Assembly (NCBI RefSeq): GCF_002968285.2
Contig: NZ_CP134400.1
Location: forward strand, 2,418,001-2,482,000
Origin: Mycobacterium sp. ITM-2016-00318
GTDB lineage: Bacteria; Actinomycetota; Actinomycetes; Mycobacteriales; Mycobacteriaceae
DNA: 64,000 nucleotides
Reading direction: 5' to 3'
Translations under genes and position numbers: made by a program
Shown: piece by piece, positions 55,590 through 61,618 of the stretch
How the letters are laid out: every line of letters starts with the position of its first letter
Numbering within the stretch: position 1 is the first letter of the stretch
The notes under the pieces: generated by a model
Databases searched by the model: none
What the model saw: the letters and a program-made list of their open reading frames with translations, nothing else
What the model was told of the DNA's origin: nothing

Positions 55590-56792
55590 CTAGATGTTCA
55601 GCGCCTGATAGGTACGTCGCACGAATTTCGGTTGCACGCCTTGGAGTTTGGCCAACGACGTGTTGCCCGCCACCGCGGCGGCGGAGTCGCCCGACATGTC
55701 GGGGTGGTTCTGGATCAGGTACAGCATGATGAGGTCGGCCGACGGGTCGGCCTGCCACCATGTCCCGAATGCCCCCGGCCACGTGAACGTGCCCTTGCCG
55801 CCGGGGCCGAACAGTTGCCGCGACTTCGCCGGGTCTGTGACGACCGACAGATTCAAACCGAACCCGCGACCGATCCAGTACGGCATGCCGAGGAACGGAT
55901 ACTGCCGCTGCTCATCGGTCAGCCGATCTGTCCTCATCAAATGCACCGAATCTTCGGAGAGCACCCGGTTTCCATCGAGCGTTCCGAACGCGAGAAGCAT
56001 GCGCACGAAGCGCAGATAGTCGTCGACCGTCGACCACAGCCCCGCCCCGCCGCTGCACAGCGGCGGATCACTGATGGGTGCAGGCCCCATCGAGTCATGA
56101 CGGAGCGTGTCGCCGGCGAGCTGATACATCGTCGCCGCGCGTTGCCGCCCGGTCGGTCCGACGCTGAATCCGGTGTCCGGCATGCCGACCGGTTCGAGGA
56201 TGCGCTCTCTCAGCACCTCGGCCAACGGCTTGCCCTCAATCCTCGAGAGAACAATGCCCAGCACATCGGTCGACACGCTGTAGGTCAGCCGTGCGCCGGG
56301 TTGATGCGTCAACGGAAGCCTGGCCAGATCGGTGAGCCAGCCGTCCTGGTCCTGGCGGTGCGACAGCTTCCCGTACGCACGCGCCAGCGGACCGAGCACC
56401 GAGAACACATACGCGAAACCGCTCCGATGGGTCATCAGATCGTCGACGGTGATCGGCCGCTCTGCGGGAACCGTGTCGTCCAGTGAGCCGCGGGGGTCGG
56501 TCATCACCCGAAGATCGGCCAACTCCGGCAGCCACTTCGTCACCGGATCCGTCAGCGCCAGCCTGCGTTCGTCGACAAGCGTCATCGCCGCGGCGACGGT
56601 GACGGGTTTGGTCATCGAGGCGATGCGGAACATGGTGTCGCGCCGCATCGGCAGCCGGGCTTCGACGTCGCGGTAGCCGAGTTCGTTGACCTGGAGCACC
56701 TCACCGGCCTGCCATACCAGCGTGACCGCGCCGGACAACAGACCGCCGTCGATCGCCTCGTTGATAGAACTGCGGTTGCCGTCGAGATTCAC
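55590..56792 (-). CDS. Beta-lactamase-fold serine hydrolase (class C / esterase-like)
   Basis: Protein of ~400 aa from GTG 56792 (NLDGNRSSINEAIDGGLLSGAV). The active-site Ser-x-x-Lys is in FRIASMTKPVT and the Tyr motif is YSVS (instead of YxN), with a later GGKGTFTW that may serve as the KTG-equivalent. This is the EstB/class C beta-lactamase-related family; esterase or peptidase activity is more likely than resistance. No signal peptide is visible. A TTG at 56843 is the longer start, but it would run into the pyrR promoter region. Confidence 0.82.
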   Translation of the reverse strand: MNLDGNRSSINEAIDGGLLSGAVTLVWQAGEVLQVNELGYRDVEARLPMRRDTMFRIASMTKPVTVAAAMTLVDERRLALTDPVTKWLPELADLRVMTDPRGSLDDTVPAERPITVDDLMTHRSGFAYVFSVLGPLARAYGKLSHRQDQDGWLTDLARLPLTHQPGARLTYSVSTDVLGIVLSRIEGKPLAEVLRERILEPVGMPDTGFSVGPTGRQRAATMYQLAGDTLRHDSMGPAPISDPPLCSGGAGLWSTVDDYLRFVRMLLAFGTLDGNRVLSEDSVHLMRTDRLTDEQRQYPFLGMPYWIGRGFGLNLSVVTDPAKSRQLFGPGGKGTFTWPGAFGTWWQADPSADLIMLYLIQNHPDMSGDSAAAVAGNTSLAKLQGVQPKFVRRTYQALNI

Positions 56793-56850
56793 CGCCGCCA
56801 GGTTACTCAGGGCGGTTGGTGTCGCTGACGGCCGGTTGTGCAACGGGTGT

Positions 56851-57500: not shown

Positions 57501-58453
57501 GCCCCCGACACCTGCTCTCCGCGGCAGACCTCACCCGCGCCGAGGCGACCGCGATCCTCGACGACGCCGACCGGTTCGCCGAGTCGCTGCTCGGCCGCGA
57601 GATCAAGAAGCTGCCGACCCTGCGCGGTCGCACCGTCATCACGATGTTCTACGAGAACTCCACTCGAACCAGGGTGTCGTTCGAGGTGGCGGGCAAGTGG
57701 ATGAGCGGGGACGTCATCAACGTCAGTTCGTCCGGGTCGTCGGTGGCCAAGGGAGAGTCGCTGCGCGATACCGCGCTGACGCTGCGGGCGGCCGGCGCCG
57801 ACGCGCTGATCATCCGCCACCCCGCCTCAGGGGCGGCACAACAGCTCGCCGAGTGGACGGCCACCGAAGACGGCGGCGGCCCGTCGGTGATCAATGCCGG
57901 TGACGGCACCCACGAGCATCCGACCCAGGCGCTCCTCGACGCGTTGACCATCCGCCAGCGCCTCGGCGGCATCGAGGGCAAGCGAGTGGTGATCGTCGGC
58001 GACGTGCTGCACAGCCGCGTGGCCCGGTCCAACGTCCTGCTACTGCACACCCTCGGCGCCGAGGTGGTTCTCGTCGCGCCGCCGACGCTGCTGCCCGTCG
58101 GGGTGGCGGGCTGGCCGGTGGCGGTGTCGCACGACCTCGACGCCGAACTGCCCACCGCCGACGCCGTGCTGATGCTGCGGGTGCAGGCCGAACGCATGAC
58201 CGGCGGCTTCTTCCCGTCGGCCCGCGAGTACTCGGTGCGCTACGGGCTCTCGGGGAAACGGCAGGCCCTGCTGCCCGGCAACGCGGTGGTTCTGCACCCG
58301 GGCCCCATGCTGCGCGGCATGGAGATCTCGTCGTCCGTCGCAGACTCCACGCAATCGGCTGTGCTGCAACAGGTTTCCAACGGTGTGCATATCAGGATGG
58401 CGGTGCTGTTCCACCTGCTGGTCGGCGCAGAGGACGAGGCGGTCAGCGCATGA
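57497..58453 (+). CDS. pyrB: Aspartate carbamoyltransferase catalytic subunit
   Basis: Protein of 318 aa. Carbamoyl-phosphate-binding [13 protein letters not shown], aspartate-loop [15 protein letters not shown], and [18 protein letters not shown] are present. It makes carbamoyl-aspartate, the first committed pyrimidine step. There is no regulatory pyrI nearby. It overlaps pyrR and pyrC (ATGA at both ends). Confidence 0.97.
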
Positions 58454-59742
58454 GCGTGCTCATCAGGGGCGTACAGCTCTACGGCGAAGGCGAGCGGGTC
58501 GACGTGCTGGTCGACGACGGCCAGATCGCCGACATCGGCGCGGATCTGTCCATCGCCGACGATGCCGACGCCGTCGACGCCTCCGGCCAGATCCTGCTGC
58601 CCGGCTTCGTCGACCTGCACACCCACCTGCGCGAGCCAGGCCGCGAGTACGCCGAGGACATCGAAACCGGTTCGGCAGCAGCAGCTCTCGGCGGCTATAC
58701 CGCGGTGTTCGCGATGGCCAACACCACACCCGTCGCCGACAGCCCGGTGGTGACCGACCACGTGTGGCACCGCGGCCAGCAGGTCGGTCTCGTCGACGTC
58801 CACCCGGTCGGTGCGGTGACCATGGGTCTGACCGGAACACAGCTGACCGAGATGGGCATGATGGCCGCAGGCGCCGCGCAGGTTCGGATGTTCTCCGACG
58901 ACGGCATCTGCGTGCACGACCCGTTGGTGATGCGCCGCGCCCTCGAGTACGCCACCGGTCTCGGCGTGCTGATCGCCCAACACGCCGAGGAACCGCGGCT
59001 GACCGTCGGCGCCGTCGCCCACGAAGGGCCCAACGCCGCCCGTCTCGGGCTCTCCGGCTGGCCGCGCGCCGCAGAGGAGTCCATCGTCGCGCGCGACGCG
59101 CTGCTGGCCCGCGACGCCGGGGCCAGGGTGCACATCTGTCACGCGTCGACAGCGGGCACGGTCGAGATCATCAGATGGGCCAAGGAACAAGGCATTTCGA
59201 TCACCGCCGAGGTGACGCCCCACCACCTGCTGCTCGACGACGCCAGGCTCGCGACCTACGACGGTCGCAATCGGGTCAACCCGCCGCTGCGTGAGTCCGA
59301 CGATGCCGAGGCGCTGCGCCAGGCGCTCGTCGACGGCGTCATCGACTGCGTCGCCACCGACCACGCGCCGCACGCCGAACACGAGAAGATGTGCGAGTTC
59401 GCCAACGCCAGGCCCGGCATGCTCGGTCTGGAGACCGCGCTGTCGGTCGTCGTCGAGACGATGGTCCGCCCGGGGCTCTTCACATGGCGCGACGTCGCCA
59501 GGGTGATGAGCGAGAACCCGGCGCGCATTGTGGGGCTGCCCGATCAGGGCAGACCGCTGGAGGTGGGGGAACCCGCCAACCTCACCGTCGTCGACCCCGA
59601 AGCCACGTGGACGGTGGCGGGCGCCGAGATGGCCAGCCGGTCGGACAACACCCCGTATGAATCCATGACGCTGCCCGGCGCTGTGACCTTGACCCTGTTA
59701 CGTGGCAATGTCACCGCGAGGGACGGAAAATCGCCGGCTTGA
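58450..59742 (+). CDS. pyrC: Dihydroorotase (type I)
   Basis: Protein of 430 aa. Zinc site [29 protein letters not shown] and [14 protein letters not shown] are all intact. It cyclises carbamoyl-aspartate to dihydroorotate. Its last codon and stop (GCT TGA) now fall at the edge of a TnpB element; restoring the empty site gives GCA TGA, so the protein still ends in KSPA. Confidence 0.96.
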
Positions 59743-59900
59743 CGTCCTCCCCGGACTAACGTCCGGGGATTCCAACCCGATCCCATCGACTAGGCGGCAG
59801 GAGCAGAGAGTTGAGGTTCACGGTTCGCAGACCGCCTAGTGGCGAGGTCTCCCCGTGCTGTCACCGCCCGTCCGGCGGCGATGTTGCGTGCAGCGTTGAC
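59740..59900 (-). ncRNA. Probable reRNA/omegaRNA of the TnpB element
   Basis: TnpB guide RNAs come from the 3' end of tnpB and the right end of the element, which ends here in a 9-bp hairpin (59748-59769) and GACGTCAA. The natural guide would be the next minus-strand bases, GCCGGCGATTTTCC and onward, the reverse complement of the pyrC 3' end. The upstream limit is approximate. Confidence 0.45.
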
Positions 59901-60974
59901 GTCGGCGTTGCACCGGCCAGCAGTGCAGGCTTCGCACTCGAAAACCGCTTGGCTCTTGCGGTTCCCAGGAGCGACGTGCCCGCACACCGAGCAACGTTGC
60001 GACGTATATGCGGCCGGTATCTGTTCGACCCGGCCGTAAGCTTTAGTCTGCAGACGCGCGGCGAAAAGGCCCCACCCACTTCGGTGTATGGCCCGGTTCA
60101 GCCCGCGCTTCTGAGCAACACCCGCACCGGGCTCCTCGACAGTTCCACGTGCAGTGCGGGCCATCGCCCGCACGTCGAGAGCTTCGAGCCTGATCGTATC
60201 GAAGCGGCGAGCAATGTCAGTAGTCGTCTTCTCGACCCAGTCCTTGCGCCGATCGACCTCGCGCGCCCTGCGTTTCGCGATCGCCAGTCTCGTTCGCGCG
60301 CGCCGGTGGGAGCCGCGCTTGGCCCGGGCGAGCCGCTGCTGCAACACCCTCAACCGCTTGGCCTCACCGCGAGTCAGACTGGGTGCGTGCAACAGTTCAC
60401 CGGTCGACAGTGCGGCCGACACGGCGACACCGCGGTCGATGCCCACCACACTGCGGTCATGCGGCCCGGAGATCGGGTCAGGGATGTGGGCGAATGCGAT
60501 GTGCCAGCGGCCGGACCGGTCACGGGCGACCCGGTAGGACTTGACCCCCGCGCCCAAGGGTCGCGACAGCCGAAACCGCACCCAGCCCACCTTGGGAACC
60601 CACACGCGACCGACGTGGCGGTTCAGCCGCTCGATGTGACGCGGTTTGACCGCGACCTGCCGAAACCCCTCGTGCAAATTCGCTTTACGCCATGTCGGTC
60701 GACGATGCGTGCCGCAGAAGAAGTTCTGCATTGCCTGGTTGAAATCTCGGAGCGCCTGCTGCTGCACGGTCTGACTCCCGGCACGAAGCCACCCGTACTC
60801 GGCGCGAGCCTCCGTCAACTGTGCAGCCTGTTCGACGTAGCCAGGAGCCTTGCGGCCCGGTTGCCAGTGCTGTTGCTGCTCTACCGCCAGATTCCATACA
60901 AACCGCGCATGCCCACAATGCGCCAACAAGACCTCTTCCTGCTCCGTGGTTGGCAACAGTCGGAACCGCGACAT
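59790..60974 (-). CDS. tnpB: TnpB, RNA-guided RuvC endonuclease (IS605/OrfB family)
   Basis: Protein of 394 aa starting MSRFRLLPTTEQEEVLLAHCGHARFVWNLAV. The RuvC triad is intact (Asp180 in VVGIDRGV, Glu264 in IRLEAL, Asp358 in CNADVNAARNI), as is the four-Cys zinc finger (Cys328, 331, 347, 350), so it may be active. The length is typical. The open frame continues upstream to 61316, but the family start is this ATG. It is antisense to the pyr-car operon. Confidence 0.9.
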   Translation of the reverse strand: MSRFRLLPTTEQEEVLLAHCGHARFVWNLAVEQQQHWQPGRKAPGYVEQAAQLTEARAEYGWLRAGSQTVQQQALRDFNQAMQNFFCGTHRRPTWRKANLHEGFRQVAVKPRHIERLNRHVGRVWVPKVGWVRFRLSRPLGAGVKSYRVARDRSGRWHIAFAHIPDPISGPHDRSVVGIDRGVAVSAALSTGELLHAPSLTRGEAKRLRVLQQRLARAKRGSHRRARTRLAIAKRRAREVDRRKDWVEKTTTDIARRFDTIRLEALDVRAMARTARGTVEEPGAGVAQKRGLNRAIHRSGWGLFAARLQTKAYGRVEQIPAAYTSQRCSVCGHVAPGNRKSQAVFECEACTAGRCNADVNAARNIAAGRAVTARGDLATRRSANREPQLSAPAA

Positions 60975-61087
60975 ATCCGCAAAGTAGCCACGGGCACCGA
61001 CATCCCTGGCCCCAGCACCGCCGCCACCCTCGGGGTCGACCTCCTTCGCGAATTGAAATCCGAGGTTTCCGCCCCGAAGAGGCTTCG

Positions 61088-61618
61088 ATGAACACCGGCA
61101 CGCTCGTGGGATCGCTGATCGTCGCCGCCGTGCTCGCGGTGGCGCTGGGGCTGGCGGTTCAGTCGATCTTGAGGGGCTGGCGCCACCGCGCCCAGCGGCA
61201 GGCGGAGCTGATCGGCGCGCTTCCGCCGATGCCCGACACCGTCGGCGAGGCGATCGTGCCCCCGACCAAAGGTCTCTATGTGGGCAGCACTCTTGCGCCC
61301 GAGTGGCTGGGGGCACCTCCCGCTTGCGGGGGAGACCGCATCGCGGTCGGCGACCTCGGCTATCGCACGAAAGCGGTGCTGACCCGCTATCCCGAGGGCA
61401 TCATGCTGCAGCGAACCGGGGCCCAGCCGATCTGGATACCCCACGAGTCGATCATCGCGATCCGCACCGAATTCGGGATCGCAGGCAAGGTCATGACCCA
61501 TGCGGGCATCCTCGCGATCAGATGGCGGCTACCGTCGGGCACAGAAATCGACACCGGATTCCGCGGCAACGATCGCGCGGAGTACGCCCAATGGCTGGGG
61601 GAGGAGGAAGCCGTATGA
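61088..61618 (+). CDS. Single-pass membrane protein of the pyr-car operon (Rv1382-like)
   Basis: Protein of 176 aa starting [27 protein letters not shown] (one membrane helix). The cytoplasmic part ([79 protein letters not shown]) looks like a PH-type domain. A nine-residue LGAPPACGG between APEW and DRIAVGD is encoded by an inserted repeat. It now starts against the left end of the TnpB element, whose GAAGAGG may act as the ribosome site inside a hairpin. It overlaps carA (ATGA). Confidence 0.8.
61307..61333 (+). repeat. Short palindromic repeat inserted in frame in the Rv1382-like gene
   Basis: 27 bp containing GGGGGCACCTCCCGC and TTGCGGGGGA, with a TCCCGC-TT-GCGGGGGA inverted repeat. It resembles a small palindromic sequence I recall as dispersed in mycobacterial genomes. 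Its length is a multiple of three and it adds LGAPPACGG without a stop. Confidence 0.55.

Follow-up and report, generated by a model that had tools for sequence, protein, structure and literature searches.

How can a transposable element come to lie between two operon genes that overlap by their stop and start codons, and leave both proteins almost unchanged? The question is raised by one place in the window, by which we mean the whole 64,000-nucleotide stretch of DNA that was analysed, itself part of a single 5.46-Mb contig. The gene row there runs pyrR, pyrB, pyrC, a bPH_11-domain gene, and carA, and a minus-strand tnpB-only element of the IS605 type, 1349 bp in length, separates pyrC from the bPH_11 gene. 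At a probability of roughly 0.7, we read this as a tnpB-only IS200/IS605 element that inserts at RTGA joints, whose ends resupply a stop codon and often a Shine-Dalgarno (SD) site, and whose TnpB probably performs guided cutting of empty alleles.

The element at the pyrC joint

The features on which the argument rests are as follows, with positions in the window.

59739..61087, minus strand: the whole tnpB-only IS605-type element, 1349 bp, delimited by empty sites, the ends of other copies, and the sequence itself
59790..60974, minus strand: tnpB, encoding a 394-aa RNA-guided endonuclease TnpB (NF040570; PF01385, PF07282, PF12323)
59739..59775, minus strand: right end, TTGGAATC-hairpin-GGGGAGGACGTCAA, predicted 3' part of the omega RNA (the sole match of this pattern in the genome; hairpin with pair changes)
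60975..61087, minus strand: left end, the 113 nt between the start of tnpB and the TAM, delimited by comparison with other copies
61088..61092, minus strand: TAM-position motif TTCAT, the reverse complement of the ATGAA at the next gene's start (from the sequence and mapped copies)
61076..61082, plus strand: GAAGAGG, a weak SD-like sequence of the left end, 5 nt upstream of the ATG (from duplex energy)
59719..59738, minus strand: predicted guide segment of 20 nt, which adjoins the right end and is antisense to the last bases of pyrC
58450..59742, plus strand: pyrC, whose last Ala codon and stop (GCT TGA) contain element bases
61088..61618, plus strand: bPH_11-domain gene (PF25362, 176 aa), whose start codon is the TAM ATG

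On the operon strand, pyrC ends ...TCG CCG GCT TGA, the element opens with TTGACGTCC at 59739 and closes with ...CCGAAGAGGCTTCG at 61087, and ATGAACACC follows from 61088. When the element is removed in silico, GCC GGC is joined to ATG AAC, and pyrC then ends in GCA TGA overlapping the next ATG. With the element in place the last pyrC residue is kept (GCA becomes GCT, both Ala), and the stop is supplied by the right end, which on the plus strand opens with TTGA. The first-pass annotation had placed an insertion at 59740..61087, exactly in an ATGA stop/start overlap. The position in the overlap is borne out by the sequence and by empty relatives, and the right edge held, while the left edge belongs one base earlier, at 59739. 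The restored stop and retained Ala that it described can be read directly from the sequence, and the GAAGAGG that it had noticed before the downstream ATG is present 5 nt upstream. Its choice of carA as the downstream neighbour was mistaken: the gene directly after the element encodes the 176-aa bPH_11 protein, which a protein search recovered in 387 of the 396 genomes of the genus sample, and carA begins at 61615. On the other side of the operon, a beta-lactamase-family protein (PF00144) is encoded at 55590-56843 on the opposite (minus) strand, directly beside pyrR.

A search with the bPH protein returned 30 loci for comparison, namely the window's own and 29 relatives, and in all 29 relatives the pyrC/bPH junction lacks the element. 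Several of these show the empty junction that had been predicted from the window, with the ATGA overlap seen among others in L052 (GCCAGC/ATGAACACC), L053 (GCCTGT/ATGAACACC), and L055 (TCCCGC/ATGAACACC); at other empty junctions GTG takes the place of this ATG, or there is a spacer of 2-79 nt.

The window's TnpB scores 225.5 bits against the guided_TnpB profile NF040570 (cut-off 100) in addition to matching the three Pfam domains listed above, and reaches 79.2 bits against the IS607-type profile NF038280, below its cut-off of 350. It had been described as a catalytically intact TnpB without TnpA, and both parts agree with what we found. The candidate catalytic residues D180, E264, and D358, whose RuvC role we assume by analogy with ISDra2 TnpB, are invariant in an alignment of the window copy and 12 relatives, and Y1 TnpA (PF01797) was not found anywhere in the genome, which contains one TnpB and one match of the right-end pattern. 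Members with tnpB only are a recognised sub-type of IS200/IS605. Among the genomes examined, PF01797 is present in 9 of 28 carriers and 5 of 28 non-carriers.

The tnpB gene looks to be under purifying selection, with dN/dS of 0.09-0.20 in the seven pairs computed; the calculation was ungapped, and three of the ten pairs, whose lengths differ, were left out. Where named, the nearest TnpB relatives among the matches listed are from Mycobacterium and Mycolicibacterium. Two copies with nearly identical tnpB genes, L009 (genome G289) and L031 (genome G278), occupy different sites in two species, and the family has therefore moved recently; G278 yielded no Y1 TnpA, and the one detected in G289 is partial. 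A TnpB sharing 59-61% identity with that of the window is encoded on each of two metagenomic viral contigs (L081 and L082). Among phages, the relatives recovered by a protein search all fell below 60% identity, and a near search with the gene of one relative had no match.

Flanking motifs and start codons in other copies

Within the mycobacteria, 58 of the 396 genomes had a match at E 1e-60 or better, and these yielded 40 usable close copies, 38 of which have a left boundary. Rows were dropped for fragments (L042 and L043), a duplicate of L029 (L044), and copies with no left boundary (L011 and L035), and three pairs that share a site (L013/L016, L019/L022, and L025/L033) were each counted as two. 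The flanks of the 38 copies read TTCAT in 13, GTCAT in 15, CTCAT in 4, ATCAT in 4, CGCAT in 1, and GCCAT in 1. The first-pass annotation had named other copies with no TTCAT flank as grounds for refuting its proposal, and by that check TTCAT fails, 25 of the 38 differing from it, while its TCAT core holds: 36 of the 38 are flanked by NTCAT, which on the other strand is ATGA.

An ATG was called start-like from codon-position GC and an open frame, the gene reading away from the element. By this measure, the ATG at the motif opens a gene in 31 of the 38 copies, compared with 36 of the 344 ATGA sites in the window (Fisher p about 2e-20); the remaining 7 copies failed the call. A stop/start overlap was called when the upstream gene also reaches the element in a frame ending at the restored TGA, and this is the case for 15 of the 38 copies versus 9 of the 344 window sites (p about 4e-11). 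A second background, made up of 833 ATGA sites in the fetched loci with the elements included, holds 98 starts and 13 overlaps. Because the CAT motif had guided the first choice of these boundaries, 12 of which were set by eye, they were remapped from the ends of homology; of the 21 among the 38 that could be checked in this way, 20 agreed and one disagreed, and the 20 confirmed boundaries include 15 start-like sites and 8 overlaps.

A scan of bacterial genomes extended the comparison. From the best 80 of 463 loci, 24 had already been counted and two (L138 and L145) have no left end, which left 54 new loci and, together with the two viral contigs, a wider set of 56, of which 20 could not be mapped by strict alignment scoring. 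The set draws on Kutzneria, Kibdelosporangium, Lentzea, Actinomadura, Actinoallomurus, Frankia, Nonomuraea, Streptosporangium, and other genera, and 34 of the 36 mapped copies come from actinomycete genera outside the mycobacteria. RTGA, the only motif sought, stands at the end of homology in 36 of 49 copies (29 ATGA and 7 GTGA), compared with 2-9 of 43-49 when the windows were shifted by 22-66 nt. The site is start-like in 22 of 36 copies, 14 failing the criterion, against 67 of 626 ATGA and 100 of 1112 GTGA background sites, and it is an overlap in 17 of 35 copies, against 17 of 626 and 22 of 1112, respectively. Separated by motif, 19 of 29 ATGA copies and 3 of 7 GTGA copies (p 0.02) are start-like. 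As GTGA was seen in only seven copies, TCAT can be taken as firm, whereas few copies support widening it to TCAY.

As controls, we took IS605-type elements of the same genus with TnpB 41-48% identical, for which 15 of 26 left ends were mapped (L049 was omitted as a copy of L048). Only 2 of the 15 sit at a start codon within a 22-nt window, compared with 31 of 38 copies of the present family by the same looser measure. Twelve of these control elements have an open Y1 frame upstream of tnpB, two of them confirmed by Pfam; in 2 the frame is broken, and in 1 it was not seen. The flanking motif of the controls differs as well, being GATC-like in the larger group. Taken as a comparison of sequences, these results strongly support what appears to be a family-wide preference for start joints.

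Element ends and translation signals

Right ends were located by searching for GTCA followed by A or T, and their constancy (GTCAA in 94 of 95, GTCAT in 1 of 95) is therefore partly built in; across the same 95, the hairpin shows pair changes and some breaks. The sole right end reading GTCAT belongs to L034, whose boundary consequently shows ATGA once more on the operon strand. GTCAA also closes the right end at 22 of 23 control loci, so the end that gives TTGA is ancestral and not an adaptation to this kind of site. The special features of the family are its motif and its left end, not its right end. A relaxed Rfam search returned sub-threshold matches to HgcC (24.7 bits against 50; window 59726-59884, minus strand) and snoR9 (17.7 bits against 90), which we did not use; HgcC may nonetheless resemble an omega RNA, judging from the position of its match over the right end.

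The left ends vary more in how they meet the downstream gene. One mycobacterial clade has a sequence of the CCGAAGGAG type, plus a few bases, directly ahead of the ATG. Another clade, like the relatives from Actinomadura and Actinoallomurus, has AAAGGAG or AGGAGG, for the most part 50-60 nt upstream of the start codon. In many copies a hairpin of about 40 nt comes after such a distal SD-like site, and several unpaired bases come after the hairpin. SD 5-mers were counted at two distances upstream of the start codon: proximal ones, at 4-14 nt, are present in 14 of 74 left ends, compared with a mean of 2.6 and a maximum of 9 in 200 shuffles, and distal ones, at 35-75 nt, in 33 of 74, compared with a mean of 9.0 and a maximum of 16. 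No 5-base SD match is found in 29 of the 74, the window copy among them. The window's GAAGAGG has a duplex energy of -5.8 against a shuffled mean of -2.6, and the native flank at the same site scores -6.6 as an SD, no worse than the element's -5.8. An adaptation of the left end is likely. Our working hypothesis for the distal arrangement is that the hairpin, which is present in many copies, would bridge the distance between SD and start codon; it is also expected to bind TnpA. In two copies from Kibdelosporangium banguiense (L125 and L128), the left ends seem to finish with CCGCCGATGAACAAG before a further ATGA, and these elements may bring their own in-frame start codon ahead of that of the target gene.

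All of this could also arise by survival alone, if the element were to insert at any TCAT and the copies within genes were lost while those ahead of start codons or between genes persisted, with ends that are unadapted and SD-like sites that are accidental or serve TnpA binding. Such a reading would fit the GTCAA right ends of the control families and the many left ends that have no 5-base SD match. However, starts exceed intergenic positions even when only non-genic sites are considered (31:7 against 36:43, p 1.7e-4), overlap joints are over-represented in both the mycobacterial and the wider set, the control elements of the same genus do not share the start habit, and the outward-facing SD-like 5-mers exceed those of the shuffles. 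As such, we hold survival alone to be a tentative alternative with odds clearly short of even.

Guides, re-occupied joints, and known systems

The first-pass annotation had taken the minus-strand flank of the right end as a guide against the empty allele, and the empty sites are consistent with this: the predicted window guide differs at 3, 3, and 4 of 20 positions from L052, L053, and L055, respectively, and at 6-7 of 20 from the more distant empty sites L062 and L073. The pyrC/bPH junction is also occupied in a metagenome-assembled draft genome, G148, by an element whose TnpB is 75% identical to the window's and whose predicted guide is the exact empty sequence of L073. This element is split over contigs 326 and 684 (L083 and L084), the ends of which share left-end sequence, and from this overlap and the gene order we infer that the two contigs join across the element. 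TnpB probably cuts empty alleles, given that tnpB looks to be under purifying selection and that the predicted guide matches the empty allele. Guide-directed retention by such cutting is plausible, and would fit both the dN/dS values and the presence of two TnpB lineages at this junction.

In a tree of 44 TnpB proteins, the window and G148 copies fall into different clades with well-supported branches between them, which indicates that distinct lineages took the pyrC site on two occasions. The response-regulator/sensor-kinase junction of L019 and L022 likewise holds two separated TnpB lineages. For the other two shared sites, the tree did not resolve the relationship of L013 and L016, and L025 and L033 belong to one larger clade and yet never formed one side of a branch in 200 bootstrap trees, although the starred branches are compatible with a single origin of this pair.

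A second occupied joint could be compared with its empty form on plasmids. In pMA100 of Mycobacterium avium, the element sits between eccB and eccCa, and in the NCBI annotation eccB ends at the element's TGA and eccCa starts at the TAM ATG behind the left end. From 24 other records matching eccB, three element-free plasmids were examined, and in each the eccB/eccC overlap is 4 bases long (GTGA, GTGA, and ATGA). A 15-residue query for a second empty site matched only its own genome. The empty sites of both pyrC and eccB/eccC point to clean insertion beside a short motif with no target duplication.

The re-occupation of joints might instead reflect homing, in which copies would spread mainly because TnpB cuts the empty homologous joint after horizontal transfer and repair copies the occupied allele, conserved joints thereby being occupied again. 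Several observations would suit this: the two TnpB lineages found at each of two joints, the identity of the G148 guide with the L073 empty sequence, the location of copies on plasmids typed as mobilizable, and a preprint report of TnpB as a gene drive for IS605 elements in plasmids (PMC11870625). Had one element crossed between species, however, the TnpBs at a shared site should be sisters, and at the pyrC and L019/L022 sites they are not, which argues for separate insertions; moreover, by our own estimate, a few hundred conserved joints would yield about one chance coincidence among some 36 sites. We consider homing a doubtful account of the pattern, weaker than survival alone. Very improbable is a domesticated regulator resembling TldRs, which are nuclease-dead TnpB regulators, with an antisense guide RNA and TnpB regulating the pyr operon: the single copy without TnpA in the genome and the purifying selection on tnpB copies would suit it, but it was set aside on account of the retained RuvC catalytic D/E/D residues, 29 relatives do without the element, and there is no common target, as the site varies from copy to copy.

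The reading we prefer, that of an element inserting at RTGA joints with ends that resupply translation signals, can be laid out in steps. On the tnpB strand, the element would insert 3' of TCAT, a motif that probably relaxes to TCAY in the family at large, with Y1 TnpA presumably supplied in trans, as the wider family suggests. On the other strand TCAY is RTGA, that is, a start codon followed by A and also a 4-base stop/start overlap. As the insertion point directly precedes RTG, the downstream gene would keep its start codon, and as the right end opens with TTGA on that strand, an overlapping upstream gene would regain an in-frame TGA and differ from its original form in the final residue at most. 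An SD-like site would be added by many left ends, either 4-14 nt upstream of the start codon or directly in front of the left-end hairpin that separates it from the start, and the operon joint would in this way be split with little damage to either protein. TnpB would then cut empty alleles, by which the element would be kept or re-homed. Whether the whole actinomycete TnpB lineage is specialised for operon joints, with a TAM antisense to RTGA, a right end that serves as a stop, and a left end that serves as a restart module, so that transposon and RNA-guided cutting are aimed where insertion costs the host least, we regard as an even bet.

TnpB elements are common, and to our knowledge their TAMs have been treated as arbitrary. 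A full-text literature search, judged by titles and the openings of abstracts and mostly not reaching subscription papers, found no account of TnpB elements that sit where genes start or where a stop overlaps a start. Should TCAY owe its selection to its reading as RTGA on the opposite strand, an RNA-guided nuclease would have a TAM that amounts to a choice of genomic niche, placing both element and guide at operon joints. This would help to explain the persistence of tnpB-only elements in operons such as pyr with no detectable transposase, and would provide an example, open to testing, of a transposon whose own stop and ribosome-binding signals suit its target.

Among known systems, TldRs resemble the window family in being TnpB relatives with a guide RNA (predicted here), but the window family keeps its catalytic residues, has intact transposon ends, and has no fixed target. 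The mycobacterial IS605-type elements with a Y1 tnpA frame and tnpB have right ends of the same shape and differ in their GATC-like motif (in the larger group) and in lying at a start codon in only 2 of 15 cases. The closest likeness is to ISDra2 TnpB (PDB 8bf8) and the tnpB-only members of IS200/IS605, presumably those named IS1341-type, with which the family has in common the TnpB domain set, the right-end hairpin, GTCAA, the right-flank position of the guide, a short motif, and, in many copies, a hairpin in the left end. In contrast to IS200/IS605, the motif here is antisense RTGA, the sites are start codons and stop/start overlaps, tnpA is absent from the element, and the left ends often carry an outward SD-like site.
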